Positions 40,799 to 61,493 of a stretch of DNA of 64,000 bases are shown piece by piece. A program made the position numbers and the translations under genes. Below the pieces are notes generated by a model, which worked only from the letters and a program-made list of their open reading frames with translations, was not told the origin of the DNA and ran no database searches. The DNA is from a virus: IMG/VR virus record IMGVR_UViG_3300036781_000806, positions 1 to 64,000 of that record. One strand, 5' to 3'. Every line of letters begins with the position of its first letter. Position 1 is the stretch's first letter.

Positions 40799-40838
40799 AA
40801 AGCTTGCTCTGCTAAGCCTGAAAAACTCATCGGCTCAT

Positions 40839-40844: not shown

Positions 40845-40851
40845 GCCGTGC

Positions 40852-42834: not shown

Positions 42835-42837
42835 ATA
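42832..42837 (+). promoter_or_regulatory. TAAATA box before gpW, module 2
   Basis: CTCCTAAATACCCATGAGG; includes the terminase stop codon and ends 16 nt before the gpW ATG. A GAGG ribosome binding site follows. Counterpart of 31877-31882. Confidence 0.45.
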
Positions 42838-42853
42838 CCCATGAGGCGCACTC

Positions 42854-43096
42854 ATGGATTGGCAAGACCATTTAGCGGAAGACGAATTAGTAGACGGCCG
42901 TCCTGAGTTTACGCGGCGCGATCTCAAAACGATCAACCATGCGATTGCGGCAGGCGTGTTGGAAGTCCGTTACAGCGACCGCACCGTTCGTTATAACTCC
43001 ACCTCGGATCTGTTGAAGGCGCGGCAGACGATCCAGACCTACCTCGATTCACAGAACGGTACTGCTCGCATTCGGCAAGCACTGCTGTACAGCTAA
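42854..43096 (+). CDS. gpW-like head-tail joining protein, module 2
   Basis: 80 residues; DLKTINHAIAAGVLEVRYSDR and SDLLKARQTIQTYLDSQN match gpW and module 1. Between terminase and portal; the stop is immediately followed by the portal ATG. Confidence 0.85.
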   Translation: MDWQDHLAEDELVDGRPEFTRRDLKTINHAIAAGVLEVRYSDRTVRYNSTSDLLKARQTIQTYLDSQNGTARIRQALLYS

Positions 43097-44665
43097 ATGG
43101 GACTCCTCGACAAAATCAAATCTGCGTTCGTATTGCGTCCAAACGCTGATGAGTCCGCACCCTTCAAAACCGGTGCGCTCGGATCTCCGAACGGCTACAG
43201 CGCTGGCGGCTACAACCGCCAGACGAAGACCTGGAACGCCTCGCCCCTCGGACCGAATACGCTCGCCGAGGTCAATCTCCAGACGATTCGCCGCCGCTCA
43301 CGTGATGCGATCCGCGATTCAGTGATTGCGGAGTCGGCCTTCTTGAAGTGGACCAGCAACGTTATCGGCTCCGGCATCGTTCCGCACTTTCTACATCCGG
43401 ACCCCAACACCCGCAAGACCATTCAAGCGGCGTGGGACTCGTGGATTCAGACCGCTGACTACGACGGCATCGACTCGTTCTACGGCCTGCAAACGCTGGC
43501 CGCAATGGAACTGTTCGCAGCCGGTGAAGTGTTTGTTCGCTTCCATACCCGCCGCGATGGTGGGTTCACGATCCAGTTAATCGAGTCAGAACAGCTTAAC
43601 GAGTTCCGCAACATCGCCATGACGAGCGACGGTCACGTCATCAAGATGGGCATCGTCTTCGATCAGGAAGACCGGCGACTTGGTTACGACCTCTGGGCTG
43701 TAAATCCGTACGACACCGTTGTGGTGACCGAAGGCGTCGGCCAGTACATCTTTGTTCCGGCTGACGAGATGTTGCATGTCATGCGGCGCACCAGGGCGGG
43801 ACAGCTTCGCCCCGTTGGTGGCCACATGTCATCCAGCCTGATCCTGCTTCAGCAGATTGAGAAGTATTGCGAAGCAGAACGCCTCCGCAAGGAAATGGCG
43901 GCGTGCTTTGCCGTCTTCATCACGAAGCTCACGCTGGACGACCAAGTTTTACCGCCCGACAACACGATCACGCCGTCAAGCGATCCGATGATGAGCGGCA
44001 AAGAAGAATCTCTGATTCAACCCGGAACCGCTCAATACCTGCTGCCCGGTGAGGACGTGAAGTTTTCGGAGCCGCCCGAGTCTGGCGATTTCAGCTCGTT
44101 CATGTCGCAGCAGCTCCACTTGTTCGCGGCTGCCGTGGGCGTGACCTACGAGCAACTGACCAACGATTTCTCGAAAGTGAATTTCAGTTCGATCCGTGCT
44201 GGGGTTCTGGAATTCCGCCGCGCGGTCGAGCAATACCAAGCCAACATCATCGTTCACCAGATGCTTGAGCCGATCAAAAAGCGCTGGATGAAGGAATCCG
44301 TACTTAATGGCTCGCTGGTTCTGCCGGAGGACTACTTCGTGGACCCGGCTCCGTACGAGGCCGCGAAGTGGGTTGCACCCGGCTGGAACTGGGTCAATCC
44401 GAAAGACGAGGTAGATGCCTACCAGACGGCGGTGCGGGCTGGCTTCATCTCCCGCACGCAAGTCGTGCGTGAGCAGGGCTTCGATCCCGAAATCATCGAC
44501 GCGCAGCAGGCCGAAGAGCGGAAGCGTGCGGCTGAGTTGGGGATCATTTACGACTCCGACCCCAACAAGGTCCTGATCGGGCGTGAGACTCAACCGCTCA
44601 CTCCGACCAACGTGGAGCCGGACTCGAACAGCAGCCAAGAGTCCGAGGAAGACGTTTCCAACTAA
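43097..44665 (+). CDS. Portal protein (lambda gpB type), module 2
   Basis: 522 residues, begins MGLLDKIKSAF. Shares WNASPLGPNTL, ADEMLHVMRRTRAGQLR, VTYEQLTNDFSKVNFSSIRA and FISRTQVVREQGFDPEIIDA with module 1. It forms the portal ring. The C-terminal Glu/Ser-rich tail differs from module 1. The stop TAA overlaps the TAAATA box before the protease gene. Confidence 0.9.
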   Translation: MGLLDKIKSAFVLRPNADESAPFKTGALGSPNGYSAGGYNRQTKTWNASPLGPNTLAEVNLQTIRRRSRDAIRDSVIAESAFLKWTSNVIGSGIVPHFLHPDPNTRKTIQAAWDSWIQTADYDGIDSFYGLQTLAAMELFAAGEVFVRFHTRRDGGFTIQLIESEQLNEFRNIAMTSDGHVIKMGIVFDQEDRRLGYDLWAVNPYDTVVVTEGVGQYIFVPADEMLHVMRRTRAGQLRPVGGHMSSSLILLQQIEKYCEAERLRKEMAACFAVFITKLTLDDQVLPPDNTITPSSDPMMSGKEESLIQPGTAQYLLPGEDVKFSEPPESGDFSSFMSQQLHLFAAAVGVTYEQLTNDFSKVNFSSIRAGVLEFRRAVEQYQANIIVHQMLEPIKKRWMKESVLNGSLVLPEDYFVDPAPYEAAKWVAPGWNWVNPKDEVDAYQTAVRAGFISRTQVVREQGFDPEIIDAQQAEERKRAAELGIIYDSDPNKVLIGRETQPLTPTNVEPDSNSSQESEEDVSN

Positions 44666-44668
44666 ATA
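44663..44668 (+). promoter_or_regulatory. TAAATA box before protease, module 2
   Basis: CAACTAAATACCCCTAGTG: includes the portal stop and ends 6 nt before the GTG at 44675. No Shine-Dalgarno sequence. Counterpart of 30067-30072. Confidence 0.45.
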
Positions 44669-44674
44669 CCCCTA

Positions 44675-46102
44675 GTGAATTTCATCCATCTACAGACGCG
44701 CCTGTTCGACACGCCGCTCGCGATCCTGGAATCCAAGTTCGAAGTGATCGTGCAGGCTATCGGTCCGCGTCTTGGGCTGGATCTGCACGGCTCCGCTATT
44801 GAAGCCGCGATCCAGACGCAGGCGGCTCAACAGAAGAGCTACAGCATGACTCCGGACGGAATCGCCGTCATTCCCATTCAAGGAACGCTGCTCAAGAAAG
44901 CCAGCGGATTGATGGCAATGAGCGGCTGCACCAGCTATGAATCGCTGGGCATGGTGCTCCAGGAGTGCATGAGTTCGCCCTCAGTAAAGGGCATCCTGCT
45001 CGACATTGACAGCCCTGGCGGTGAAGTCAGCGGGCTATTCGACCTAGCGGACTCCTTCTACTCCGCCAAATCCAAGAAGCCCAGCTATGCGGTAAGCAAC
45101 GATTCAGCGTTTAGCGCCGCCTACGCGTTGGCAAGTTGCGCCGACAGGATCTTCATCACCCGCACTGCGGGCGTTGGTTCGGTGGGTGTGTTTTGTTCCC
45201 ACGTGGATCAGTCAGCCGCCGACCAGAAGGCCGGTCTTAAGTTCACCTACATCAAGGCTGGTGCCAAGAAGACGCAAGGCAACCCGCATGAGCCGTTGAC
45301 CGAGCAGGCCACCAGCGATTTGCAGGCCGAGGTCCAGCGGGAATACCAGATGTTCGTTGAACTCGTGGCCCGCAACCGTGGCGTCGGCGCTCAATCCGTG
45401 ATCGATACAGAGGCCGGTTGTTTCTTTGCCGAGAACGCCATTCCGCTGCTCGCCGATCAGGTCGGCACGTTCGATGATGCGCTCGCCGCACTGACGGCCC
45501 TAGTCGCGGCGACACCGCAAGCGGCTTTTATAAATAGCTCTACCAATCAAGAGGCATCCATGAAGAAGAAAGCAACCACCACCGCGACCTCGGAAGAGAC
45601 ACCGCTCGTAGCAGCAATCGAGGCCGAGGACGAAATGGAGAATCCGGAACAATGCGCCACTCCGGACGCCGATCCGGACAACGACGACGAGGACGACGAA
45701 GACGAAAAGAAGCCCGAAGCCACCGACGTTAAGCAGATTCTCAATCTCTGCAAACTGGCCGGTGCCGATCTCTCCACCGCTTCCGACTTCATCACCAACG
45801 GCTTCTCGACCCAACAGGTAATTGACGCACTGGCCACAGAGCGTTCCACACGGAGCAACAAAACCAAAGTGAACACCACGATCAACACCGCAACCACCAC
45901 CGTTGATGCTCTCCAGGAGCAGGCGCTCGCAAGCGCCGACAACCCAAAGAAAGTTCTTGAGAACTTCAAGGCTCTCTTGCGAAAGAACCCGTCAGCGTAC
46001 GTGAACTACGTGGACAGCAAGCTCGAAGCGATGGCGCTGCCTTCTACCAAGCGCAAGTACGTTGCAGAGCTTGAAGCAAAGTACGGCCAGAAGTTGGCCT
46101 AA
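44675..46102 (+). CDS. S49 prohead protease with C-terminal scaffold, module 2
   Basis: 475 residues, GTG start. S49 motifs: DIDSPGGEVSG (110-120), nucleophile S147 in SAFSAAYALAS, lysine K198/K199 in AGAKKTQGNP. An acidic/Lys-rich scaffold with a DNDDEDDEDEKK run forms the C-terminal third. Same role as the module 1 enzyme; the protease domain is much better conserved than the scaffold. Confidence 0.87.
   Translation: MNFIHLQTRLFDTPLAILESKFEVIVQAIGPRLGLDLHGSAIEAAIQTQAAQQKSYSMTPDGIAVIPIQGTLLKKASGLMAMSGCTSYESLGMVLQECMSSPSVKGILLDIDSPGGEVSGLFDLADSFYSAKSKKPSYAVSNDSAFSAAYALASCADRIFITRTAGVGSVGVFCSHVDQSAADQKAGLKFTYIKAGAKKTQGNPHEPLTEQATSDLQAEVQREYQMFVELVARNRGVGAQSVIDTEAGCFFAENAIPLLADQVGTFDDALAALTALVAATPQAAFINSSTNQEASMKKKATTTATSEETPLVAAIEAEDEMENPEQCATPDADPDNDDEDDEDEKKPEATDVKQILNLCKLAGADLSTASDFITNGFSTQQVIDALATERSTRSNKTKVNTTINTATTTVDALQEQALASADNPKKVLENFKALLRKNPSAYVNYVDSKLEAMALPSTKRKYVAELEAKYGQKLA
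45531..45536 (+). promoter_or_regulatory. TATAAATA box inside protease gene, before nested scaffold
   Basis: TTTTATAAATAGCTC; the 8-mer TATAAATA (45529-45536) is identical to the T4 late promoter consensus. It lies 23 nt upstream of an internal ATG with AAGAGG before it (45560). Confidence 0.5.
45560..46102 (+). CDS. Nested capsid scaffold protein (Nu3-like), module 2
   Basis: In-frame internal ATG at 45560 (MKKKATTTATSEE) with AAGAGG 6 nt upstream would give a 180-residue scaffold, co-terminal with the protease, as in lambda C/Nu3. The preceding TATAAATA and the same layout in module 1 support separate expression. Confidence 0.6.
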   Translation: MKKKATTTATSEETPLVAAIEAEDEMENPEQCATPDADPDNDDEDDEDEKKPEATDVKQILNLCKLAGADLSTASDFITNGFSTQQVIDALATERSTRSNKTKVNTTINTATTTVDALQEQALASADNPKKVLENFKALLRKNPSAYVNYVDSKLEAMALPSTKRKYVAELEAKYGQKLA

Positions 46103-46120
46103 ACGGAGAAACACCCAACC

Positions 46121-46495
46121 ATGGCATACGAACAGGTTTCACACAAAATCAGCGCTCCGGCAGCCAGCGACCTTTCTGCTTTGCAGTACACCGCTGTCAT
46201 TTTCGACACAACGGCGGGGGGCAGCAAGATCGCCGCCGCTACAGCCGCCAAAAATATGGACGGCATCCTGCAGGACGCACCTAAGAGCGGTCAGGCTGGC
46301 AACGTCGCGATTGACGGAGTCTCGAAGGCAAAGCTTTCGGGCAGCGTCACGGCTGGCGATCAGCTCGAAATCGACACGGGCGGCACATTCGTTACCAAGG
46401 CAAGCGGTCAAGCAATCGCAAAGGCTTTGATGAGCGGTTCGTCGGGCGATGTCATCTCGGTCCTGCTCTACAAGAGCAACGGACTGTACGCCTAA
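46121..46495 (+). CDS. Capsid decoration protein (gpD-like), module 2
   Basis: 124 residues, begins MAYEQVSHKISAPAASDLS. Shares the LQ-D-P-SGQ strand block and the GLYA end with module 1. Located between protease and capsid. A GGAGAAAC leader precedes the ATG. Confidence 0.82.
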   Translation: MAYEQVSHKISAPAASDLSALQYTAVIFDTTAGGSKIAAATAAKNMDGILQDAPKSGQAGNVAIDGVSKAKLSGSVTAGDQLEIDTGGTFVTKASGQAIAKALMSGSSGDVISVLLYKSNGLYA

Positions 46496-46519
46496 GAGAA
46501 CCACGAGGAATAGAACCAA

Positions 46520-47509
46520 ATGAATCCCACAGTAAACGCAGTCCACTACGACAGCCCGTTGACCTTCGTATCAAACATGTACGCACAAAGCAACGATGCT
46601 TTCGTGGCGTCTAAGATCTTTCCGCTGGTTCCGGTGCCTCAGGCGTCCGACTTGATCTACACGATCAACAAGGGCGATTTCGCACGCAACTCGATGTTGA
46701 AGCGTGCACCCGGCACTGAGTCGGCAGGCATCGGCTACAACGTGGATACCAACAAGTCGTATCGCTGCGGCGTGTGGTCGATCCATCACGACATTCCGGA
46801 TCAGATTCGCGCCAACGCGGACGCTGCTCTGAATCTGGAGATGAACGCCTCAGAACTCCTGACCAAGGCAGCACTTATCAACCGTGAGGTCTCGTTCACG
46901 AGCACCTTCTTAGCCTCCGGCATCTGGAACACCCAGTGGACCGGCGTTGGCTCCAGCCCCTCCACCAACCAGTTCGTACAGTGGAACGATCCAGCCAGCA
47001 CCCCGATTGAGGACGTTCGCGCCGTTGCCACAAAGGTACATCTGAACTCCGGTGGTTTCATGCCGAACAAGATGGTGATCGGAAAGACGGTTTACAACGC
47101 CCTCCGCAATCACCCGGACATCCTGGACCTTATTAAATACCAGGGCACTCCGGCCAGCCCCGCACAGGTCACACTGAACGCGCTGGCTGCGTTGTTCGAC
47201 CTGGACGAAGTTGTGGTGACCGAGGCTGTTTACAACACGGCTGCGGAAGGTCAGACCGCCACGTTCAGCTACGTGAGCGATAAGACAGCGCTTCTGGCTT
47301 ACACGCCCTCATCTCCCGGCCTGAACGTTCCGGCCAGTGGCTATACCTTCAACTGGACCGGCCTGTTCGGAACTGGCGCAGCGGGCACCCGCGTTAAGGC
47401 GTTCCGGATGGAATGGCTCGATTCGCTCCGCATTGAAGTTGACCAAGCGTATGACATGCAGATCATGGACAACACCTTGGGCGGCTACTTCGTTACTGCC
47501 GTTGCCTAA
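46520..47509 (+). CDS. Major capsid protein (lambda gpE type), module 2
   Basis: 329 residues, begins MNPTVNAVHYDSPLTFVSN, ends GGYFVTAVA. Same domain plan as the module 1 capsid, but roughly half the residues differ by eye, so the two shells may not co-assemble. Intact frame. Confidence 0.88.
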   Translation: MNPTVNAVHYDSPLTFVSNMYAQSNDAFVASKIFPLVPVPQASDLIYTINKGDFARNSMLKRAPGTESAGIGYNVDTNKSYRCGVWSIHHDIPDQIRANADAALNLEMNASELLTKAALINREVSFTSTFLASGIWNTQWTGVGSSPSTNQFVQWNDPASTPIEDVRAVATKVHLNSGGFMPNKMVIGKTVYNALRNHPDILDLIKYQGTPASPAQVTLNALAALFDLDEVVVTEAVYNTAAEGQTATFSYVSDKTALLAYTPSSPGLNVPASGYTFNWTGLFGTGAAGTRVKAFRMEWLDSLRIEVDQAYDMQIMDNTLGGYFVTAVA

Positions 47510-47511
47510 AC

Positions 47512-47769
47512 ATGAGACTCGCCGAAACAAAAAACCGGGAAGACTGGCGCACAATCGCCAGTCTTGCCATTCCTGCGATGCAAGTTCGGAACCACCCGTT
47601 GCTTTGGAACGGCGAGATGCTCCCCATCGGCGCAATGTTCCCGGTAGAAAACGTACTGCCTCGGCGCATCAGGCAATTGTTTGAGCAGAACAAAATCGGC
47701 GTTGCCGTCGAGAGCGAGACGAAGCCAAAGAAAAGCAAGACTGGCCATCAGGCTGGCAAGAGGAAATAG
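47512..47769 (+). CDS. Small head-completion-type protein (85 aa), module 2
   Basis: Begins MRLAETKNREDWRTIAS 2 nt after the capsid stop; WNGEMLPIGAMFPVENVLPR aligns with the module 1 gene 27052-27285 and both have a Lys-rich end. Lambda FI position. Confidence 0.65.
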   Translation: MRLAETKNREDWRTIASLAIPAMQVRNHPLLWNGEMLPIGAMFPVENVLPRRIRQLFEQNKIGVAVESETKPKKSKTGHQAGKRK

Positions 47770-47771
47770 AG

Positions 47772-48188
47772 ATGGGCGTACAAAAATTCAAAAGAAAGGT
47801 CCTGGCTCCGTCGTTCGTACCGGAAACCACGGGCATCGCGCTTGCTGACCTCGCACAGGGAACAAACGGACAGGTGTTGATTGCCAACACTGGCGCGGCG
47901 ACCGCCTATCAAACCTTGTCAGGCGACGTGACTGTAAACCAGACCGGTGTTACGGCTGTGGGATCGGGCAAAATCACGAAGGCCAAAATCAAGATGTTCA
48001 CGGCGAACAGTGTAGCTGGAACAGGTTCGGCTCAGAATGTGGCACACGGTCTCGGCACCACCCCAACGTACGTGATCATCTCATCTCCGGATGGCGGAAC
48101 CCTGACGTATGGGACGCATGACGGAACCAACGTGAAGTTCACAGCGGGCGACAACTCGCACCACTTCGACGTTATCGCTTTCGCTTAA
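47772..48188 (+). CDS. Minor virion protein (138 aa), module 2
   Basis: Shares GSGKITKAKIKMF, NVAHGLGTTPTYV and the FDVIAFA end with 26741-27052. It has an extra N-terminal segment of about 35 residues (LAQGTNGQVLIANTG) found in phage fibre and collar proteins. Neck or surface role likely. Confidence 0.68.
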   Translation: MGVQKFKRKVLAPSFVPETTGIALADLAQGTNGQVLIANTGAATAYQTLSGDVTVNQTGVTAVGSGKITKAKIKMFTANSVAGTGSAQNVAHGLGTTPTYVIISSPDGGTLTYGTHDGTNVKFTAGDNSHHFDVIAFA

Positions 48189-48193
48189 CCAAG

Positions 48194-48481
48194 ATGGCAA
48201 ATTTCAGACAAGTGACGCCCTCGGTAAAAATCCAGGGATCGACAATTTCAGCCAGTTACACCGGAACGGCAGGACTTACGGCTGTTACCGGTGCATCCCT
48301 TGTCATGGTCTGCGCTACCACCGATTGCCACATTCGAGTAGGTTCGGCACCAACCGCCGTTTCAACCGATTTCTTCCTACCAGCAAAGACGGTCATCTAT
48401 TTGACTTGCAACCCTACCGACAAGATCAGCGCCATTCAGGACGCATCGGGTGGAACGATCTTCGTAAATCCATGCGGATAA
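48194..48481 (+). CDS. Virion-associated protein (95 aa), module 2 only
   Basis: Beta-rich, Thr/Ala/Ser-rich (ISASYTGTAGLTAVTGASLV) with three Cys. There is no counterpart in module 1, where the flanking genes are 17 nt apart. Probably a small structural protein. Confidence 0.6.
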   Translation: MANFRQVTPSVKIQGSTISASYTGTAGLTAVTGASLVMVCATTDCHIRVGSAPTAVSTDFFLPAKTVIYLTCNPTDKISAIQDASGGTIFVNPCG

Positions 48482-48482
48482 A

Positions 48483-48821
48483 ATGGCCTTCAATGATCTC
48501 ATCCGGCATGCATACGACACCTGCCTAAACGTCTTCGGCGTTCAGCAGGAAGGCATCACGGCTGTTTTCACTCCCCAAGACTACTCAGGTCCACAACGCA
48601 TCAACGGCATCATCTCGCCTCCCCCACTCGAAGAACAAGTCATTCCCGGTTCAATGACCGGCACGAGCATCGTTTACTTCTGGGTCTCGACTTTCGACAT
48701 GCTTCCTGTGCCGAAAATCGGCGACACGCTGACGCTCGATGGAGTGCTTTACAACTTGGACAAAGTGAACGTCGATGTGTACGGCGGAGCGATGCTCCAC
48801 CTGAGGCGTTCCAATGCTTAA
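48483..48821 (+). CDS. Head-tail joining protein, module 2
   Basis: 112 residues; TPQDYSGPQRINGIISPPPL and TLDGVLYNLDKVNVD are shared with 26412-26723. Neck/stopper position before the tail terminator, whose start it overlaps by 8 nt. Confidence 0.73.
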   Translation: MAFNDLIRHAYDTCLNVFGVQQEGITAVFTPQDYSGPQRINGIISPPPLEEQVIPGSMTGTSIVYFWVSTFDMLPVPKIGDTLTLDGVLYNLDKVNVDVYGGAMLHLRRSNA

Positions 48822-49287
48822 ACCCAGCCTCGTTGTGAACGCCGTGATCTCGACGCTGCAAACCATCGCGCCGTTTGTGGCCGCTATGAACGGGCCACAG
48901 AACATCAAGGCGCACAGCTTCGTCAACGGCCAAGTCGTCCCGATCATGACCGACATTTACGAGATGACAGCGCCCAGTTGCCTAGTCGTCTACGAGGGCA
49001 CGCTGGGCGGCAACTTCGACGGAATGACGATCTGGAAGCACCTCCTCACGATCTACCTGAAAGCGCCGAATCAAGCGACCATTCAAACGCCGTTGGGCTA
49101 TGAAGACTTGGTCTGGATGGTCGTAAACGGCGAAGTCAACAGCACGCAGCTCAACATCCGGCAAATCTCCGTCATTCCCGAAGTCAGCTTGATGGACACG
49201 CCCACCATAACCCGGATGACGGATGAATCGAGGACTGACTTCTTCAAGGTCGAATGCGTGTTTCCGGAGATCGGGGATTCGATGTGA
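48814..49287 (+). CDS. Tail terminator/completion protein, module 2
   Basis: 157 residues, close to 25941-26411 (MLKPSLVVNAVISTLQTI, SCLVVYEGTLGGNFDGMT, YLKAPNQATIQTPLGYEDLV). Probably caps the tail tube at the head end. An HNH endonuclease gene follows here but not in module 1. Confidence 0.76.
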   Translation: MLKPSLVVNAVISTLQTIAPFVAAMNGPQNIKAHSFVNGQVVPIMTDIYEMTAPSCLVVYEGTLGGNFDGMTIWKHLLTIYLKAPNQATIQTPLGYEDLVWMVVNGEVNSTQLNIRQISVIPEVSLMDTPTITRMTDESRTDFFKVECVFPEIGDSM

Positions 49288-49326
49288 CCTGTTGCGGTGT
49301 GCGGGCCTGCTCCATACATATGGCCG

Positions 49327-49806
49327 ATGCAAGAGCAGTGGAAAGCGATACCGGGTTTTGAAGGCGTTTATGAGGCAAGCGACCAGGGGCGAATACGGGG
49401 CCTGTCGCGCGTGGTCAGGAGGGGGCGCGGTTTCACCCGCTTGCCTGAACTGATCATCAAACCGGCAGGTTCAAGGTACCTGCACGTTTCCCTGGGGCGA
49501 GATGGAGTTCGCACCAATGCTTTCGTTCATCGGCTCGTCATGTCGGCCTTCTATGGTCCGAGCGACTTGACTGTGAATCACCGCAACCGGATCAAAACGG
49601 ACAACAGGCTCGCCAACCTTGAATACATGACGCAGACCGAGAACACGAGGGACGCATCGTTTCTGACACAGCAACAAGCTCAGGAAATTCGAGAGCTTTA
49701 TGCTTCCGGTGCAGGTTCCCAGCGGGCATTAGCAGTGCAATACGGAGTCTGCCATGCCACCATCTGGCTCATCGTGCACGGCCTCCGCTGGCAAGATGCC
49801 GCGTGA
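49327..49806 (+). CDS. HNH homing endonuclease with NUMOD4 domain
   Basis: 159 residues from the ATG at 49327. NUMOD4 (WKAIPGFEGVYEASDQGRIR) is followed by an HNH domain (FVHRLVMSAFYGPSDLTVNH, then NRLANLEYMT) and a C-terminal helix-turn-helix (QRALAVQYGVCHATIWLIVH). A free-standing homing endonuclease inserted between tail terminator and tail tube genes of module 2. It may favour spread of the neighbouring DNA and drive conversion between the two modules. Confidence 0.88.
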   Translation: MQEQWKAIPGFEGVYEASDQGRIRGLSRVVRRGRGFTRLPELIIKPAGSRYLHVSLGRDGVRTNAFVHRLVMSAFYGPSDLTVNHRNRIKTDNRLANLEYMTQTENTRDASFLTQQQAQEIRELYASGAGSQRALAVQYGVCHATIWLIVHGLRWQDAA

Positions 49807-49816
49807 CACCCATAGC

Positions 49817-49822
49817 TAAATA
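49817..49822 (+). promoter_or_regulatory. TAAATA box before tail tube, module 2
   Basis: ATAGCTAAATAAGGTTTC, 40 nt before the ATG at 49863, which has its own AGAGGA ribosome binding site. Counterpart of 25931-25936. Confidence 0.4.
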
Positions 49823-49862
49823 AGGTTTCGGGGCTACTGGCCCAGAGAGGACAACACATCTT

Positions 49863-50873
49863 ATGGCAACCCGTGTTCAGGCCCTGAAATTGGGACTCGG
49901 TAAAGCAAAGCAGGCCGACATTACGACCGTGGCTGGCTCCTTCCTGACGTTTGAAAAGACGAACGAGGACGTTACCTCAGTAAACTTCACGACCGAGAAC
50001 GATGCAACGTGGATCGGCAAGGGCAACGAGTTCGTATCGAGCGCTGGTGTGTTCCCCGTAAGCCAGACTCCGCAGAACCGAATCGAGATGTACGGTTCAG
50101 CCGAAATGACCGTGTGGGCGTTCGCCTACGCGCTTGGTCACGTAGCAGAAGCCACCGGCCTTTACACCCTGAAGCCAATCCAAAACGGAACCACGCTCGA
50201 ACTCCCGTACTTCAGCATTTGTGAACAGATGCCAGAGGGAGGATCGGAAGCGATTGACAACGTTTACGTCGGTTGCGCGATGGAGGACGTCGTTTTCACG
50301 CTCAACAGCGGGCCGGGTCTTCAATCCACCAAGGTTACGGCGAATTGGGTAGGCTCCGGCAATTACACCAGTCCTTCCGCCGTCAGCCTTCCAGGTTTGA
50401 CGGCTCAACACTTCATGCCGGGTGCCAGCGCCGCGTTGACGATTCTTGGCACCGATTACGTTGCCGCCAAGACCCTGTTGAACGCCCAGATCGGCTGGAA
50501 GAACAACCTGCTTTTGAACGCTGGCTTCTTCCCCGGCTCCGGAACTCAGAACGGCGCGGCTGTCCGTGGCCGAATGGAAATCGGCGTCCGTCAGCCAAGC
50601 TTCGAGTTCACAGTGCGCTTGCTGAATAGCTCCACCGAGTTCGCTTCCTTGGTCGGCCTGACCAGCGGAACCGCAGTCTTGACGGTCACCTACGATTCGA
50701 CCCACACCGTTACCTTCACGTTCGGCGAGGTTACGTTTGAGTCAGTCACCAACACCGTGGTCGATGGCATCGCCGCCGTTAAGGTCGTCTGCGCCGTCCA
50801 GGACAGCGACGGAACGGGCAACCCCTTGGTTGTCACGGGCAAAGCGGGCAGCATCACCGGAATCGCGCAGTAA
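49863..50873 (+). CDS. Major tail tube protein, module 2
   Basis: 336 residues, begins MATRVQALKLGLGKAKQ. By eye this and the module 1 tube are the most similar large pair (long identical blocks such as NGTTLELPYFSICEQ and FPGSGTQNGAAVRGRMEIG), so mixed tubes are conceivable. Intact, with AGAGGA 12 nt before the ATG. Confidence 0.87.
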   Translation: MATRVQALKLGLGKAKQADITTVAGSFLTFEKTNEDVTSVNFTTENDATWIGKGNEFVSSAGVFPVSQTPQNRIEMYGSAEMTVWAFAYALGHVAEATGLYTLKPIQNGTTLELPYFSICEQMPEGGSEAIDNVYVGCAMEDVVFTLNSGPGLQSTKVTANWVGSGNYTSPSAVSLPGLTAQHFMPGASAALTILGTDYVAAKTLLNAQIGWKNNLLLNAGFFPGSGTQNGAAVRGRMEIGVRQPSFEFTVRLLNSSTEFASLVGLTSGTAVLTVTYDSTHTVTFTFGEVTFESVTNTVVDGIAAVKVVCAVQDSDGTGNPLVVTGKAGSITGIAQ

Positions 50874-50884
50874 CGAGGTCACAA

Positions 50885-51286
50885 ATGGCAACCACCATCA
50901 ATCACACAGTCGTCCGCACCTACAAGAATCAAGGCTCCACTGCCCGCACGCTTTCCGAGACAGTGAGCGGCAACACGGAGCGCAACCTAGCGGTGCAGGT
51001 CGCAGGCACCACCACCAACCATCACGTTGTAATCACTTGGGTACAGGCCGACATTCAGAGCCTCAGCATCACCAGCGACCAAGCCATCACGATCTATACG
51101 AACGCGGCCTCGGGTAGCAGCCCACAGGACACGATTGCGATTGCAGCCGGTCAGGTGTTGATCTGGACGCTGGCAACCGACTTAGTCGCACGTTGCCCAT
51201 TCAGCGACGACGTGACCAGCATCTACATCACCAATTCCGGTTCGACCGCTGCCAACATCTTTATTGACAGCGTGCTCTCGATCTAA
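50885..51286 (+). CDS. Virion structural protein (133 aa), module 2
   Basis: Same length as 24203-24604 and nearly colinear in sequence (TTINHTVVRTYKNQGSTAR, QSLSITSDQAITIYTNAASG). It follows the tail tube gene by 12 nt and is itself followed by an intrinsic terminator. Tail tube decoration or neck role proposed. Confidence 0.72.
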   Translation: MATTINHTVVRTYKNQGSTARTLSETVSGNTERNLAVQVAGTTTNHHVVITWVQADIQSLSITSDQAITIYTNAASGSSPQDTIAIAAGQVLIWTLATDLVARCPFSDDVTSIYITNSGSTAANIFIDSVLSI

Positions 51287-51289
51287 ATA
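51284..51289 (+). promoter_or_regulatory. TAAATA box at end of 50885-51286
   Basis: ATCTAAATACTCAC; contains the stop codon. A transcript from here would meet the terminator at 51310-51343, so as a promoter it would be attenuated. It is 120 nt upstream of the G gene start. Confidence 0.3.
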
Positions 51290-51309
51290 CTCACAACTCC
51301 TTAGACTGC

Positions 51310-51343
51310 GGGCCACATCGCCGACCAGCGTGTGGCCCTTTTT
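51310..51343 (+). terminator. Intrinsic terminator before G gene, module 2
   Basis: GGGCCACA (51310-51317) pairs perfectly with TGTGGCCC (51331-51338), then TTTTT. It splits late module 2 between the tail tube group and the G/GT-tape measure group, so the latter needs its own promoter or antitermination. Confidence 0.85.
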
Positions 51344-51409
51344 CATATCCAGCTACATAGTTCACGAACGAGCAGTTCTGCTCGTCAGCAAGGAGCATCC
51401 AACCATCAC

Positions 51410-51961
51410 ATGTTGTACGGCGAATTGAATACAATCACGCTTTCTGACGGCTCAGCCATTCAAGGTCTCAAGGTTCAGATTCCGCATCCCCGGAAGACCG
51501 CCGTTATCCGGCGTCCGACCGATAAGGAGCTAGACGCCACAAAGGAGAAATTCCGTAAGCTGCTCAAAAAGGACCCGGCCAGCACCGACAAGATGCCGTA
51601 CCTGGATCTGTTCAACGGTATCCGGCTGGATCAAGACGGGGAGGACTTCGACGAGTATGAAGCCGAGCACATCATCGGGTGGGCCATTCAAGCGACGGCG
51701 GATTCAGAAACAATAGGTGAGGAACTGGCCGTTACGATCACGACGCCCACCTGCACGGTTCGCCATTTCCTACGCTTCCCAACCTTCAAAGAAATGCAGA
51801 CCAAGACGGGCGCGGCGTTGTTCGATGCCCTGTTCCTGCGTCAGGAAGGCTACGCGACGGGCTGCGAGATCCCAGCACAGCATCGGGAGCTTGCGATGCG
51901 CGAAGTCATCAAGAATCATCTGTCGATTGACCCGTTCGTCTCGACGGACCCAAACGCCTAA
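51410..51961 (+). CDS. Tail assembly chaperone G-like protein, module 2
   Basis: 183 residues from the ATG at 51410 (MLYGELNTITLSDGS), matching the module 1 start; the open frame to 51332 includes the terminator region and is rejected. Ends STDPNA with TAA at 51959-51961. Shares PTDKELDATKEKF and DEYEAEHIIGWAI with module 1. Binds the tape measure by analogy with lambda gpG. Confidence 0.83.
   Translation: MLYGELNTITLSDGSAIQGLKVQIPHPRKTAVIRRPTDKELDATKEKFRKLLKKDPASTDKMPYLDLFNGIRLDQDGEDFDEYEAEHIIGWAIQATADSETIGEELAVTITTPTCTVRHFLRFPTFKEMQTKTGAALFDALFLRQEGYATGCEIPAQHRELAMREVIKNHLSIDPFVSTDPNA
51949..51955 (+). promoter_or_regulatory. -1 frameshift slippery heptamer, module 2
   Basis: C CCA AAC in the G frame (GAC CCA AAC GCC TAA); a -1 slip reads CGC CTA AAG into the open T frame. 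A 5-bp hairpin CCGGA-AGATTA-TCCGG starts 8 nt downstream, the spacing expected of a stimulatory element. Confidence 0.82.
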
Positions 51962-52434
51962 AGCCGGAAGATTATCCGGACCCGCCAACCTTGCGGTTCC
52001 TCATCAACCGGCAACTCCGACGCGACTCCCTGTGCGCGGGCGGTCCAGACGGCGCGGTGCGCTGCCCTGTCAGGATGCAAGATCCGCTCATGATCTGCGA
52101 CGATTGCGGAGCACGACACCGACGGTACAACCAGGACTGCCCATCATGCGGATCGCCCGACACCACCACCGTGCAATGTGACGACTGCCCGGTGAAACGC
52201 CTAGACGAACTTATGCGCTCTGACGCGGGTGCGTTGCTGCCACAGGTGTATGAACTCAACCGAGCAGCCGAAACATTCAACATCGACTGGGGCGACGTGT
52301 CGGCCACGATGGGCAAAGGGTTGGACATCCTCAAGCAGGAACTCAACAAGCTGCACTCCGAACACATGGAGTCGGCCAAGCAGAAACCGGCCAGCATCGA
52401 CTGGGCTAAGGTGAAGCGCTCAAACGGTAAATAA
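51955..52434 (+). CDS. gpT-like -1 frameshift extension with zinc ribbon, module 2
   Basis: About 159 residues joined to G by the frameshift (341 aa in total). EDYPDPPTLRFLINRQL is followed by three C-x2-C pairs (CDDC, CPSC, CDDC) and a helical C-terminus rich in Lys/Glu. Only a TTG at 51991 could start it independently near the beginning, with no ribosome binding site. The zinc ribbon in a GT-type chaperone is conserved in both modules. Confidence 0.76.
   Translation, partial: RLKPEDYPDPPTLRFLINRQLRRDSLCAGGPDGAVRCPVRMQDPLMICDDCGARHRRYNQDCPSCGSPDTTTVQCDDCPVKRLDELMRSDAGALLPQVYELNRAAETFNIDWGDVSATMGKGLDILKQELNKLHSEHMESAKQKPASIDWAKVKRSNGK
52428..52433 (+). promoter_or_regulatory. TAAATA box before gp10-like gene, module 2
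   Basis: CGGTAAATAACGGTG: overlaps the T-frame stop and ends 5 nt before the GTG at 52439. Counterpart of 22686-22691. Confidence 0.4.
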
Positions 52435-52438
52435 CGGT

Positions 52439-52876
52439 GTGAAAATAACCAGAGCGCGTTTCACCCTGAGTCCGTTTTCCTCCGAGCAAATGGCTGGCAT
52501 CGGCAAGGTGCTCGCCAAATCGATCCGGGATCGCATCGGATCGGGCCTCAACGCCCTCGACCAATCAGCCAAGCCTCTGAGACCAGGACGGCGCGGCAAG
52601 AAGGGCTACCCAGAGTACAAACAAGCCCATGGGATCGCGCCCGTTCGCAACTGGACCTGGACCGGGCGCACGTTGCGGAGCCTGCAGGTGCTCTCCGTCA
52701 ATCAGAACCGTGGAACGATCGGCTTCGTAGACGCGATGGGCGACCAGAAGGCGCACTATAACAATCTGATTGAAAAGGCGTTCGCAGTCAGCCCCAAAGA
52801 TGCGGTGGCGCTGCGCCAAGCCGTTTACGACACGTTCCGATCAGAAAAGCCAATTCAATTCCGGCGCGTAGCCTGA
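52439..52876 (+). CDS. HK97 gp10-like/lambda Z-like minor tail protein, module 2
   Basis: 145 residues, GTG start as in module 1. TWTGRTLRSLQVLSVNQNRG and FVDAMGDQKAHYNN are identical blocks with 22228-22680. Tail completion or joining role inferred from position and family. Confidence 0.76.
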   Translation: MKITRARFTLSPFSSEQMAGIGKVLAKSIRDRIGSGLNALDQSAKPLRPGRRGKKGYPEYKQAHGIAPVRNWTWTGRTLRSLQVLSVNQNRGTIGFVDAMGDQKAHYNNLIEKAFAVSPKDAVALRQAVYDTFRSEKPIQFRRVA

Positions 52877-52916
52877 TGCTTCCGGAAGTGTTGGCGAATG
52901 ATAGCATTCAAAGGTA

Positions 52917-53603
52917 ATGTCTATAAGCGTCTCATTCGGGAATCCAACCATTCTGATGCGATCTTACTTTTCCTCTCACCACCTGTGGGCGGCGCGGTAC
53001 TTCGTCGTCCGAGCAATAGAAGTCGAAGCTCGCCAAAAAGACATTCCTCGATTCGACTTGGAGCAGCGGGCCTTTGTTACGGGTGCGATCCTTTCATCTG
53101 TGGCGTTCCTAGAAGCAGCCATTAACGAGGTGTTAAAGGATGTGGCCGATGGACATGAGAGCTACATTTCTCCTATTGCTCCTACCGCCAGTGCTGAAAT
53201 AAAGGCTTTCTGGGAGTCAGCAGGGAACGGCGCTCGGTTGTCGGGGCCGGTTCTGGATAGGTATCAGGCCGTCCTACGGTTTTGTGGCGAAGCGGAATTC
53301 TCCAAAGGGCAAGCGCCCTATCAGGACGCGGATTCAGTGACAAAGCTCCGTAATGAATTAATACACTACATGCCCGAAACTCTCGGGGGCGAGAATCAAC
53401 ATAAGCTCGGGCAACGGCTCTCAAAAAGTTTCCCAACGAACCCTCTGTTAGTTGGTTCGGGGAATCCCTACTTCCCTGACCACTGCCTAGGCAGTCCTTG
53501 CGCGGACTGGGCCGTCAATTCTGTGCGGGCCTTTGCTGACAGCTTCTTCAACAAGATTGGCGTTTCCCCCAACTACATGCGTGTCAACTTTCCTGCGGTC
53601 TAG
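52917..53603 (+). CDS. HEPN-like protein (moron), 228 aa
   Basis: A mostly helical protein inserted between gp10-like and tape measure genes, the same slot used by 21896-22231 in module 1. LRNELIHYMPE (about 141-151) contains the R-x4-H signature of HEPN ribonucleases, and AFLEAAINEVLKD upstream is a typical HEPN helix. AAAGGT precedes the ATG. HEPN proteins often serve as toxins or defence effectors; here that is inferred from the motif alone. Confidence 0.68.
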   Translation: MSISVSFGNPTILMRSYFSSHHLWAARYFVVRAIEVEARQKDIPRFDLEQRAFVTGAILSSVAFLEAAINEVLKDVADGHESYISPIAPTASAEIKAFWESAGNGARLSGPVLDRYQAVLRFCGEAEFSKGQAPYQDADSVTKLRNELIHYMPETLGGENQHKLGQRLSKSFPTNPLLVGSGNPYFPDHCLGSPCADWAVNSVRAFADSFFNKIGVSPNYMRVNFPAV

Positions 53604-53624
53604 TCGCACCAAGCACCTTTCCCA

Positions 53625-53630
53625 TAAATA
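53625..53630 (+). promoter_or_regulatory. TAAATA box before tape measure, module 2
   Basis: CCCATAAATACTCCTATGGG: ends 5 nt before the ATG at 53636, with no Shine-Dalgarno sequence. CATAAATAC is shared with the module 1 tape measure (21830) and hub (17020) boxes. Confidence 0.5.
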
Positions 53631-53635
53631 CTCCT

Positions 53636-56600
53636 ATGGGTTTGGAAACGGTTGTCTATGAAATCGACACACGGTCAACGCTAAAAGCGTTACAAACCAT
53701 CAATGATGCGGTCACGCAGGGCGAAGGCAAGCTCAGCGAGCATAACCAAAAGCTCAGCGATGCGTTTTCCAAAGTTTCCAACGACCTAGTAAAGTTCTCC
53801 GACAAAGCAACCCAATCACAGGAGCGGTTTCTAAAATCGCTAGAGCGGCAGGCTGACTTAGCGGGCAAGTCGGGCGTCGATAAGCTGATTGCAGATCGTG
53901 ACCGGCTCATCCGGAAATACCAGGACGATGAAAAAGCGGTGGATCGCGTCACCGCTGCCTACAAGAAGCTGATCGCCGCCGAACAGGGCGGAGGCCAGAA
54001 CAATCTCCAGAAGTTTGGCCAGAGCATCACCCAGTTCATTCAAAACCCGCTACAAGCGGCTGGTGGTCAGGCCACCACGTTCCTGGAAGGCATCGGACCC
54101 GTAGCGGCTGGCATCGCCTCCGTCGCGACGGCTGCTGTCGCTCTTGGCGTCGCTCTTTATAAGGATGTGGAAGCGTTCGGCGAAGCATCGGAACGGCTTA
54201 TCAATCTGTCTGCCTCAACCGGCATCGCGGTCGGAGACCTGGACAAGCTGCAGGCGATGGCGAAGTTGACCGGCACCGACATTTCCTCGATCACTCGCGC
54301 CGCGACCACCATGGACGAGGCCCTGGAAGAAGGCGGCGAGAAGGGCAAGAAGCTCGCCGACAATCTGGCTAAGCTCCATGTCTCCACGATTGATTTCAAT
54401 GGTGCGCAGAAGCAGGGCGGCGAGATCCTAGGTGAAGTGTTCCACCGGCTGGCGCAAGTTTCAGACCAAACGGAACGGATCGGCCTAGCAGCCGAAATCA
54501 TGGGACCGAAGGTCTCCCGTAACTTCCTGCCCATCATCCAGAACCTGGATGCTCTCAACCAGAAAGCAGAAGAGCTTGGTTTCGGGATGCGCGACGGCCT
54601 GATTAAAGAGGGAGCCGAGGCCGCTGAAACGCTGCATGAAATGAGCTTACGCTTTGACATTCTCGAAGGCAAGATAGCCGGGTTTGTGATTGGCGCGGTC
54701 AAATGGCTGGCACCGTTTAAGGACAGCATCCTAGAGGCGTTTAGTCCGTTGCTCGAAGCGCTCAGCCTGTTGGACCGCTACAACGCAGCGGTTCGAGACG
54801 CCGAGTCAAAGAAGTACGACCTGTCAGGCGGTAGCAAGACCCTCGATGTTTTCAAACAGAAGAACATCGCATCTGCGCAAGCCTTCAATTCCGCGCAGGG
54901 CTTGAATCAGGAAGACGCCATCAAGCAGAAGATCAAGGACCTGGAAGAGCAGAAGCAAAAGGCCCAACTCATCATCGACACCGCCGCACGTGGCCAGCTT
55001 GCAGACCGGCCATCGCTTGTTAAAGCCGAGCACGATGTTACCAAGTCGAATCAGCAGATCGAAGCCAACAAGAAGCTGTTGGAGCAGATCAGCCAGCGCA
55101 AAGAGTTTTTGAAACAGTTGCACGAGCAGGAGCTTGGCGCTGGCGATTCTGAACTCTCCGCGTACGACCGCATCATCGCCAAGCGTGACGAGCAGATCCA
55201 GAAGGCGAAAGAACTCGGTTTCGTGGGTTCGCAGCTTGCCCAAGTCACCGCGACAGAAAACAAGAATGCCATTCGTGACATCGACCTGTTGAATCAGCGG
55301 CTGGACGCTCAGCAGGCTAAGGAGCTAAAAGCAATCGCGGTAACTGAGGCCCGCGCCAACTTGCACCAGCAGCAGGCACGCCAGCTACAGATTCCCATTC
55401 GTGATCTTGGTCAAAAAGGCGTCACGGCATCAGACATAGAGGCCGACATTGCAGCGGCCACGCAGCAAAAGCTGTTATTTGCTCAGCAGGAGCACGACCA
55501 AGAGATTTCGCTCGCCAATGAATTGAAGCTGTCGAACGGCCAAACAGACGAGCGAGCAAAACAGCTAGCCATCGCGCACGCCGACTCGCAGTTGCGTCAG
55601 GAAGCGGGCCAGATCGAGACGGATCGAGAGAAGCATCTCAGCGATCTGCGCCAGAAGCAGATAGACCAGCACCGAGCCTTCCAGGAAGAGCTATCCAAGA
55701 TCACGTCGGGCGGAGCCGCCGACGATGTGAAGTCGCGCTCTGGCCTACTCTCAAAGCTCTCAACGCTCAACCGGAAAGACGACCGGCAAGGCGTCATCGA
55801 AGACGAACTCAAAATCAAGATTGACGAAGCCAACCAGCTTGCCAAGATTGAGCTTGACCGGATCAGCCGAGAGGAGGACGGCTATCAGGCCAGCCTCAGC
55901 GCCGAAAAAGCATTGCGGCAACTCAAAAAGGAAACGGACGACGCCCACTCTGAGGCGATCTTGCAACAGGCAGAGCTTCAGCACCAGCAGTTTGAACAGG
56001 TGAAGTCCGAAGCTGAGAAGCTCTACAACACGCTCTTTACTAAGCCCAAGGATTTCGGGAAGGATTTAGCCAGCACGCTGCATTCAGCGTTTTTGAAGCC
56101 AGTCACGGAAGGCTTCGCAGGCGTCACGTCGCGTGCGCTCCAGCCGTTGATTTACGGTCGGGATGGAAAGTCAGGAATCGCGGGCGCGTTCGGTAACTTG
56201 TTCGGCGGAGCCGACAAGCCTGACAAGCTCACGCTGTCCAACGACCAGAACACCAGGGCCACGGATCAGAACACCGCTACTCTGTACGGACTCACCACCA
56301 TTATGTCTCGTGGGTTGGGTCTTCCGGCTCCTCCCGCACCATCCGGCCTCGCAGGAGCCTCAGTATCCCTGTCGGTATCCGGGAGTGGCTCCGGAGGTTC
56401 TTCTGGGCCTCTCTCGATACTCGGACGGCTGGCCGGGATCGGCTCAGCGCCCATCGTGATCCCGCCGTCCTCGAACGGTAACTTCGGTGGTGGGTCATCG
56501 GGTGTGGCGGCGATCTCCAGCGGCATCAGCTTTCCAGAGCTAGGCACGGGTGAAGACCTCGGCACCAGCATCACCACGCCTTCCGCGCCGATGTTCGGCT

Positions 56601-57523
56601 CCGAGAGTCTCGGTCTGCCTCCGGGTCTCAGGATTCCCAGCGGCACGGGCGGCTTTGGCAGCGTTCTAAACGGCCTCGGCGGGAAAGGTGGGTTCAACCT
56701 CTCCAGCTTGAAAGGCATCAACTGGGGTTCATTCTCACACGCGGGTGATTTCACGGGCGCGGGCGGTGCCAAGGTCTCAGGTGGTGGCCGCATAACGGGC
56801 GTTAACGGTCTTGCAGGAGCGGCGTTGTTCGCGGGTGGATCGCAGTTAGCCGAGGCTGGCTTGCTAGGTAACGCACGCGGAACTGGCCTAGGCATTTTGG
56901 AGGCGGGTGCCGGTGGTGCTGCACTCGGCATGAAATTTGGTGGTCCTCTCGGCGCGGCTATCGGCGCTGCTGCTGGTGTGTTGGCTGGCGTTGGTGAAAA
57001 GCTGGCGGGTGTTGAATCGCCGGTCAACGAAGCCAAGCGCCTTGTGAAGCAAAAATACAGCGTCACGATTGACACGCAGTTTGCGCAGAAGATCGTGCAG
57101 ACTGCACAACAGAAGTACGGCGGCAAAGTCTCGCTGGCCGTCATGGATCCGGAAATCCGGAACGCTCTCATGGTCTACGCTTCGGGCACCGGCCAGAAAG
57201 TGCCGTTGTCGAGCACGATGCCGCACGCAGGCAACTTGGCGATGTCTGGAGGCCAGCTCCAGCAGGAAGCCTCCTACATGTTCGGGCAGGCGTACACATA
57301 TCAATCGAATCTGCCCAGCTACGGCAACGTCAGCAGCACCACGCTACCCAACACGAGTCCTGCCATCAGCCTGCACATTGATGGTCAAGCTGCTGGTGCA
57401 TTCATGGCCGGTCAGGTAGTGACGCCCGATTTCGTGCAGCAGCAAGCCAGCCAAGCTGCAAACTACTCGAATGGACGAGTCCAGAACTCAGCAACCTTGA
57501 ACCAGCCGTTGCTCTACGTCTAA
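53636..57523 (+). CDS. Tape measure protein, module 2
   Basis: 1295 residues. The N-terminal coiled coil (MGLETVVYEIDTRSTLKALQT) and the C-terminal domain (QKYGGKVSLAVMDPEIRNA, MFGQAYTYQSNLPSYG) are nearly the same as in module 1, while the central Gln/Lys/Glu-rich coil is longer and diverged. A hydrophobic stretch near 155-180. At about 0.15 nm per residue the tail would be about 190 nm, against about 170 nm for module 1. Confidence 0.88.
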   Translation: MGLETVVYEIDTRSTLKALQTINDAVTQGEGKLSEHNQKLSDAFSKVSNDLVKFSDKATQSQERFLKSLERQADLAGKSGVDKLIADRDRLIRKYQDDEKAVDRVTAAYKKLIAAEQGGGQNNLQKFGQSITQFIQNPLQAAGGQATTFLEGIGPVAAGIASVATAAVALGVALYKDVEAFGEASERLINLSASTGIAVGDLDKLQAMAKLTGTDISSITRAATTMDEALEEGGEKGKKLADNLAKLHVSTIDFNGAQKQGGEILGEVFHRLAQVSDQTERIGLAAEIMGPKVSRNFLPIIQNLDALNQKAEELGFGMRDGLIKEGAEAAETLHEMSLRFDILEGKIAGFVIGAVKWLAPFKDSILEAFSPLLEALSLLDRYNAAVRDAESKKYDLSGGSKTLDVFKQKNIASAQAFNSAQGLNQEDAIKQKIKDLEEQKQKAQLIIDTAARGQLADRPSLVKAEHDVTKSNQQIEANKKLLEQISQRKEFLKQLHEQELGAGDSELSAYDRIIAKRDEQIQKAKELGFVGSQLAQVTATENKNAIRDIDLLNQRLDAQQAKELKAIAVTEARANLHQQQARQLQIPIRDLGQKGVTASDIEADIAAATQQKLLFAQQEHDQEISLANELKLSNGQTDERAKQLAIAHADSQLRQEAGQIETDREKHLSDLRQKQIDQHRAFQEELSKITSGGAADDVKSRSGLLSKLSTLNRKDDRQGVIEDELKIKIDEANQLAKIELDRISREEDGYQASLSAEKALRQLKKETDDAHSEAILQQAELQHQQFEQVKSEAEKLYNTLFTKPKDFGKDLASTLHSAFLKPVTEGFAGVTSRALQPLIYGRDGKSGIAGAFGNLFGGADKPDKLTLSNDQNTRATDQNTATLYGLTTIMSRGLGLPAPPAPSGLAGASVSLSVSGSGSGGSSGPLSILGRLAGIGSAPIVIPPSSNGNFGGGSSGVAAISSGISFPELGTGEDLGTSITTPSAPMFGSESLGLPPGLRIPSGTGGFGSVLNGLGGKGGFNLSSLKGINWGSFSHAGDFTGAGGAKVSGGGRITGVNGLAGAALFAGGSQLAEAGLLGNARGTGLGILEAGAGGAALGMKFGGPLGAAIGAAAGVLAGVGEKLAGVESPVNEAKRLVKQKYSVTIDTQFAQKIVQTAQQKYGGKVSLAVMDPEIRNALMVYASGTGQKVPLSSTMPHAGNLAMSGGQLQQEASYMFGQAYTYQSNLPSYGNVSSTTLPNTSPAISLHIDGQAAGAFMAGQVVTPDFVQQQASQAANYSNGRVQNSATLNQPLLYV

Positions 57524-57524
57524 G

Positions 57525-57983
57525 ATGCCGATGAACCTTGTAACAGCGAGTCCGCAGGGCGTTTTGCCCCAGATGCTCTACACAGCATTTGAGGAATCGC
57601 GCGTCTTCCCGATGTTGAGCCAGCAGTACCACGACAAAACCGTGGAGCGCTCGTTGATCCAGGATGGTGTGAACGCGCCCGAGTCGATCCGATCCTGGAA
57701 ACTATCGGTGCGCCTGACGAGCTACCAGGATCTCGACGGACCGGGAGCGCTACAGCTTGCCACGCTCCGAGACTTTTACGCCGCCCATCTCGGAGGCTTG
57801 GTTCCGTTTTACTGGTACCACCCGTTTGAACAGTCGGATGGAACGCCGGTTGGCTCCAACTACGACCCAACCGGCGACTCGGAGCCGGGACGTCACGTCG
57901 TGAAGTTTCGGAACCAAAGCTGGCAGGAGACGACCGACATGTCGATGACCAATGTGTCGTTTGAGCTGCTGGAAATCGCCTAG
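57525..57983 (+). CDS. Minor tail protein (gpM-like position), module 2
   Basis: 152 residues, begins MPMNLVTASPQGVLPQMLYT. Last recognisable gene of module 2. It shares LIQDGVNAPESIRSWKLS, FYWYHPFEQ and ETTDMSMTNVSFEL with 17977-18432. The hub gene that follows in module 1 is missing here; noncoding AT-rich DNA follows at once. Confidence 0.78.
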   Translation: MPMNLVTASPQGVLPQMLYTAFEESRVFPMLSQQYHDKTVERSLIQDGVNAPESIRSWKLSVRLTSYQDLDGPGALQLATLRDFYAAHLGGLVPFYWYHPFEQSDGTPVGSNYDPTGDSEPGRHVVKFRNQSWQETTDMSMTNVSFELLEIA

Positions 57984-60474: not shown

Positions 60475-60684
60475 TCAGCAGCCGTGTTCCTTCTGGTGTT
60501 GGTGGAGCGCCCCGAAAGATCTCTCTTTCAGGCCGACGAGTTGTTCAAGTTCCTTGTCGAGTTGCTGGATTGCTCGGAGGTTGTTCGCTTTGTTCGCATC
60601 GAGCATTTTCTGAGTGATGGAAATGATTTGGCTGAGGGCATCGGTCGCGGACTTCGACAGGCGATCTCGTTCTTGGCAGTGCAT
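60475..60684 (-). CDS. Small protein of the HGC-ending type (69 aa)
   Basis: Helical (SATDALSQIISITQKMLDAN) and ending ALHQHQKEHGC, the same terminal signature as 23997-24200. The ATG at 60684 is one option; the frame is open to 60774. Minus strand. The 282 nt to its left (60193-60474) show no convincing gene. Confidence 0.55.
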   Translation of the reverse strand: MHCQERDRLSKSATDALSQIISITQKMLDANKANNLRAIQQLDKELEQLVGLKERSFGALHQHQKEHGC

Positions 60685-60796: not shown

Positions 60797-60830
60797 AAGA
60801 GTACTGCATCAACAAGAGTACTGCATCAAC
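60797..60830. repeat. Tandem 17-bp repeat, two copies
   Basis: AAGAGTACTGCATCAAC occurs at 60797-60813 and 60814-60830 with no spacer. Contains the palindrome AGTACT. Purpose unknown. Confidence 0.8.
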
Positions 60831-61046
60831 TTCCCAGCCCCGAAGAGGGGAATTGAATGCCGCCCGTTCACAGCGTTATGCTCTGTGTGGGAGTGCGACA
60901 CGATCCCATCGGAGGGCGGGTTGCACTCCTGGACTCGCTGGCCAACGAGTGCGACCACCTCGTTACCTTAAAGGGAACGATCCAGTACGGTGAGACGCCA
61001 GAAATCAGGTAACGAACCTGGACGACCGAGTTTCGGTATCCTTTAA

Positions 61047-61127
61047 TGCGCGGGGGGACGGCCCTGGAGTTTACAAGCAGACCGCGCTATCGGTCTGCTT
61101 ATTGCTTCCGTTCGCGTTCCTCCGCGC
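61047..61127 (+). ncRNA. Structured repeat element, copy 2 (candidate RNA)
   Basis: About 81 nt matching the minus-strand copy at 23874-23952. The inner hairpin here is a perfect 10-bp stem, AAGCAGACCG (61075-61084) and CGGTCTGCTT (61091-61100), loop CGCTAT. The outer stem GCGCGG/CCGCGC continues with G-U and G-C pairs and ACGG/CCGT. No gene lies directly downstream on this strand before 61920. Confidence 0.5.
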
Positions 61128-61258
61128 TCAACTCTACTGCACAGTGCTGACCATCGACAAGGCCTTACTAATCAGGCGGTCGTCATCTGGATTGGGTGTA
61201 GGCACGCAAAACGGAAGCCCGGAACTGGCCCAAGGCACGCTACTCTTCTTTACGCTTA

Positions 61259-61303
61259 GTGCTGAGCGCAGGTGTATAGGCTTAGTGCTCAGTTAGTGCT
61301 GAG
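61259..61303 (+). repeat. TTAGTGCTGAG repeats at right end
   Basis: TTAGTGCTGAG starts at 61257 and 61294 with a one-base variant (TTAGTGCTCAG) at 61283; further GTGCTGA copies lie at 61576-61583 and 61587-61593 beyond the tRNA fragment. The core matches the repeats at 39-58. Confidence 0.5.
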
Positions 61304-61449
61304 GGGGGTCCCCCCGAGCCGTCGCTCGACGGCACCCCTCTATGAGTCCGGGAGACTCAGATGTTGCTTGTAAAGCGGTTCGACGGGCCTCAGAGTGCGA
61401 TTGGCGCGGATTCCGTAAAGTCGCTTTTTTGCGCCCTCCGGAAGATCGA

Positions 61450-61493
61450 GTAGCTTAGAAGGCTGATGCTCTATCCACCTGAGCTACGCGCCC
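61450..61493 (-). pseudogene. 5' half of tRNA-Arg(UCU), probable attachment site attR
   Basis: On the minus strand from 61493: GGGCGCG acceptor strand, TA, D arm GCTC...GAGC, anticodon stem TCAGC and loop CTTCTAA with anticodon UCU. The 3' anticodon stem breaks off after GCT, and no T arm or 3' acceptor follows. A break at the anticodon loop is a classic integrase crossover point. The intact tRNA-Arg should lie left of the window, next to the integrase. Confidence 0.75.

Follow-up and report, generated by a model that had tools for sequence, protein, structure and literature searches.

The locus raises the question of why one phage should carry the same imperfect hairpin of about 80 nt twice, in opposite orientation, and whether such a hairpin acts as RNA or as DNA. 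The initial annotation suggested either a structured RNA or a mobile hairpin repeat, together with a possible inversion of the 37 kb between the copies. Here we analysed a 64,000-nt stretch (the window) of the virus record IMGVR_UViG_3300036781_000806, whose full length is 66,429 bases.

The prophage and its paired late modules

The record reads as a prophage. It encodes a tyrosine integrase (1-1458) and a gp32-like single-strand DNA-binding protein (3012-3812), and its head and tail genes are lambda-like. Judging by the flanking genes, the host is probably an acidobacterium. Two paralogous late modules, each with terminase, portal, protease, capsid, tail, and tape measure genes, are present in this one record in inverted arrangement, with module 1 at about 7399-34348 on the minus strand and module 2 at about 39382-57983 on the plus strand. 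They share ~71-84% nucleotide identity across aligned stretches, and the inverted homology includes 594 nt at 75%. This pairing could reflect the fusion of two related prophages, or else a join made in assembly. Between its two terminase genes, small and large, module 2 also encodes a DUF3800-like protein (39935-40798), with a Pfam match below threshold, and the left arm contains an 80-nt direct repeat (2299-2378 and 2570-2649) at 74% identity.

Toward the right end is the 5' half of a tRNA (61401-61493, minus strand; sub-threshold tRNA match at about 61455-61493), which is broken off near the anticodon stem. With its CTTCTAA anticodon loop, we read this fragment as probably Arg-TCT, and it is likely the right attachment site of the prophage. 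Direct repeats TTAGTGCT(G/C)AG and AGTGCTGA are clustered around the fragment (61256-61303, also 61143 and 61586), and may be arm-type sites for the integrase or an intergenic repeat of the host.

Two copies of a hairpin within a longer unit

The hairpin is found at 61047-61127 on the plus strand (copy 1) and at 23874-23952 on the minus strand (copy 2), in agreement with the initial annotation, and both copies are intergenic. They are homologous, with 88% identity and an E value of 8e-20 in a search of the 66,429-base record, and the long identical blocks that had been described, of 24 nt (GGGGGACGGCCCTGGAGTTTACAA) and 18-19 nt (CTTATTGCTTCCGTTCGCG), were verified. The whole record contains exactly two copies, and a covariance-model search of the window and the related-phage loci returned no third. 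Copy 2 sits 177 nt upstream of a G-like gene (23140-23697, minus strand), as expected from its proposed position in the leader of that gene, and copy 1 is ~0.3-0.4 kb inside the presumed attachment site.

The length of ~80 nt first given for the element describes the hairpin, which is real, but is too short for the repeated unit. Significant homology runs on for ~120 nt 3' of the hairpin, pairing 61128-61247 with 23873-23753, at a local alignment score of 24 compared to 20 for the best shuffle (0 of 1000 dinucleotide shuffles reached it). The unit therefore measures ~200 nt rather than 80. Flank alignment gave no homology beyond this 3' part, and none was found in the 5' flank, where 259 of 1000 shuffles aligned as well. 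The remainder of the unit (61128-61247, plus strand, in copy 1; 23753-23873, minus strand, in copy 2, ending ~55 nt before the G-like gene) is ~60% identical between copies, with shared blocks TGACC, TGGGTGTAGNNNCGCAAA, and AACTGGNNCAA, and folds no better than shuffled sequence. Differences occupy 49 of 123 columns here and only 13 of 82 in the hairpin (Fisher P 3e-4), which makes the hairpin the better-guarded part of the unit.

The inverted orientation of the copies is what recommended them as a recombination site for the intervening 37 kb. However, at ~80 bp, 88% identity, and with gaps, they would make a poor substrate beside the far longer 594-bp inverted homology of the modules (75%), and such an inversion would cut through the module 1 tail operon. 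The inverted arrangement was not seen. The inversion claim is unsupported, and we consider a role of this kind extremely improbable.

Hairpin architecture and stem changes

Copy 1 consists of a closing stem of 13 bp, an inner stem of 6 bp with one bulge, and a perfect apical stem of 10 bp, with two internal loops that are invariant between copies; the first of these loops is GCCC/GUUC. Whichever strand is taken, no other 84-nt segment of the window folds more stably, and the RNA fold z scores of copy 1 are -5.5 (plus) and -5.2 (minus). In copy 2, the closing stem is 12 bp and eight of the ten apical pairs are kept. Among the 13 differing columns, 12 are paired and one is an insertion in the apical loop; unpaired columns carry no substitutions at all. 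The stem differences had been described as mostly pair-preserving, which is a fair description: three apical pairs are altered on both sides yet still paired, and two are broken. The closing stem of copy 2, compared to copy 1, has lost one base on each side, has one G-C changed to G-U, and has one A-U broken.

A conditional permutation for three or more compensations gave P 0.007, based on two sequences only. By the standard covariation control, also on two sequences, 64 of 500 shuffles matched the observed score, which is not significant, so covariation within the hairpin is suggestive only. With just two sequences, these statistics are necessarily weak. The proposal of a structured RNA is thus upheld in part, by the invariant loops, the confinement of changes to stems, and the fold of copy 1.

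RNA or DNA, and the likely strand

For copy 2, the RNA fold z score is -1.2 on the strand of the G-like gene and -3.2 on the opposite strand, which carries a small ORF (described below). The one-sided stem changes that are informative about strand include two that pair only on the small-ORF strand and one that pairs only on the other. Folded as single-stranded DNA, copy 2 fails to adopt the hairpin, and we rejected a single-stranded DNA hairpin for this reason. Based on the strand-wise z scores, the one-sided changes, and the failure of copy 2 to fold as single-stranded DNA, an RNA element is favoured over a DNA element, with a slight lean toward the small-ORF strand as the one transcribed.

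Several other identities were rejected. A coding origin does not fit, as one-base gaps break the reading frames, codon usage in the hairpin frames is not gene-like, and the differences have no codon periodicity. No tRNA or tmRNA was found. A terminator was also discounted: neither strand has a T-run after the complete hairpin, and the terminator scan returned only a 5-pair site at the apical stem of copy 2.

An RNA could instead be read from the other strand, sense with both modules, as a cis-acting element of the late transcripts that might, for example, modify RNA polymerase in the manner of the HK022 put RNAs. Each copy is indeed co-directional with transcription of its nearer structural module, on the late-gene strand no other segment folds as well as copy 1, and two similar ~80-nt copies per phage are reminiscent of putL and putR. 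Copy 2, however, folds poorly on that strand (the z of -1.2 above) and is inside an operon rather than near an early promoter, while downstream of copy 1 no gene was identified on that strand before the attachment site. The element is also a single long hairpin rather than two stem-loops. We regard the late-transcript role as unlikely.

Extra sequence in module 1 and the small ORFs

The spacer that holds copy 2 is bounded by a gene at 24203-24604 and by the G-like gene. Its length is 505 nt in module 1 but only 123 nt in module 2, and a related phage has 235 nt here. What module 1 has in addition is the unit together with a small ORF on the opposite strand (23997-24200). The related phage, IMGVR_UViG_3300036781_000799, was the sole close relative recovered by protein-based scans of viral contigs. 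Its incomplete record, a 43-kb fragment, contains one module, and the element is absent from it. The spacers of module 2 and of this relative, which both lack the unit, are too diverged for the edges of an insertion to be placed. In the leader of the module 2 G-like gene, where module 1 carries the element, there is a short perfect hairpin, ACGAGCAG-TT-CTGCTCGT (51366-51387).

The additional sequence, missing from module 2 and from the relative, might have arrived with a MITE- or REP-like non-autonomous mobile element. Such an element would have come from the host or from elsewhere in the prophage, and its hairpin would be recognised as single-stranded DNA. The two copies are at unrelated, intergenic positions, and on the 5' side the homology stops at the hairpin, all of which is consistent with mobility. 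Against this, only two copies exist in the record and none was found elsewhere in IMG/VR or, at a 21-base core, in 85k genomes; copy 2 lacks the hairpin as single-stranded DNA, and the hairpin has been kept far better than the remainder of the unit, unlike the neutral decay expected of a whole mobile copy. REPs are described as high-copy palindromes of 20-40 bp (PMC3733652). We saw no target duplication by eye at the copies, and no transposase gene was recognised among the proteins scanned. A mobile hairpin repeat of the common type is disfavoured by the copy number and the selective conservation of the hairpin, and mobility in the wider sense is somewhat unlikely.

A further alternative is leftover homology from the recombination of two related prophages into a single record, to which each contributed a copy of an element of the phage family; the hairpin may or may not be functional. 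The inverted paralogous modules are ~75% identical and the unit has diverged to a similar degree. The copies are nevertheless at non-equivalent positions in the modules, and the one close relative, as far as its incomplete record goes, is without the element. This scenario would in any case account for copy number rather than function, and we regard it as very unlikely.

The small ORF beside copy 2 (23997-24200, plus strand) is putatively coding and would specify 67 amino acids ending in HRKQHGC. It is on the 5' side of copy 2 and on the opposite strand. On the same side of copy 1, ~366 nt away and again on the opposite strand, is a second small ORF (60475-60681, minus strand; MHCQERDRL...HQKEHGC), which is likely coding; codon usage was not informative for the first. 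The final 28 bases of the two ORFs match at 21 positions, with an alignment score that is itself not significant, and their whole-length likeness is weak (phmmer E 2-3). Small proteins of this HGC-ending type presumably belong to a family widespread in Acidobacteria. Between copy 1 and its small ORF there are a perfect 17-nt tandem repeat (AAGAGTACTGCATCAAC, 60797-60830) and another possible ORF. No sigma-70-like promoter was found near either copy, and the host may use other motifs.

Searches for relatives of the element

No Rfam 15 family matched at its gathering score, nor was there a consistent sub-threshold match in both copies. The Guanidine-II riboswitch (mini-ykkC, RF01068) gave a sub-threshold match at 61014-61066 (23.5 bits, with gathering at 32), which we rejected as chance since its first hairpin is outside the repeated unit and copy 2 has no match. 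DNA-pattern scans of IMG/VR viral contigs returned chance matches only, mostly in coding sequence. An exact 21-base core searched in 85k GTDB genomes gave three chance matches, a pattern that could miss diverged homologues, and blastn against phage and plasmid records gave nothing credible.

A possible leader of an accessory gene

We tentatively read the element as a structured RNA that belongs to a small accessory ('moron') cassette, a reading that is possible rather than established and leaves the strand uncertain. The repeated unit would be a duplicated non-coding piece of the prophage, ~200 nt long, that acts through RNA and is most likely transcribed opposite to the late genes. In this reading it would precede a small accessory gene, supplying both its upstream region and a hairpin leader. 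The order would then be ~120 nt of conserved unstructured DNA, serving as a putative promoter or operator part, followed by the 80-nt hairpin and the small ORF. The lack of folding in the 120-nt part is what would be expected of a DNA control sequence. A protein or ribosome might read the hairpin, with its invariant internal loops, and so set expression of the ORF beyond.

Such a leader is favoured by the position of the small ORFs, which have similar C-termini and flank their respective copies on the same side. The distance of ~366 nt from copy 1 to its ORF argues against, as do the limited likeness of the ORFs, the missing promoter, the covariation control on two sequences, and the lack of any relative in the searches, and the link to the copy 1 ORF in particular is one that we infer. 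Because only two sequences are available, no family can be defined and no function is claimed; any role assigned from two known copies is a guess. It is quite unlikely, though conceivable, that the element represents a new class of phage-borne structured RNA, used twice in this one prophage as a control or protein-binding element with invariant internal loops. Should it prove to be an RNA element, the phages of a poorly studied soil phylum would gain an unclassified motif, whose two natural variants already define the stems and invariant loops. If it is merely a decaying repeat, it is of little importance.

Comparison with known systems

Like the palindromes of REP, BIME, and REPIN systems, the element is an intergenic imperfect hairpin present in repeated copies. 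It differs from them in having two copies in the record rather than many, invariant internal loops, and a unit of ~200 nt.

The putL and putR RNAs of HK022 are ~70 nt long, similar to each other in sequence, and formed of two stem-loops each, near early promoters (PMC9378689). As in HK022, a single temperate phage has two structured elements that resemble each other and measure 70-80 nt. The present element, however, is one long hairpin rather than a pair of neighbouring stem-loops by an early promoter; it is inside the tail operon in one copy and near the attachment end in the other, with 120 nt of additional homology.

In lambdoid phages, moron cassettes are extra small ORFs inserted between tail genes in the opposite orientation. 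To our knowledge, no moron shares a long conserved hairpin leader such as the one seen here, and the promoter and terminator were not found at this locus. The arrangement in module 1 is nonetheless alike, in that extra sequence with a small ORF lies between tail genes in the opposite orientation.
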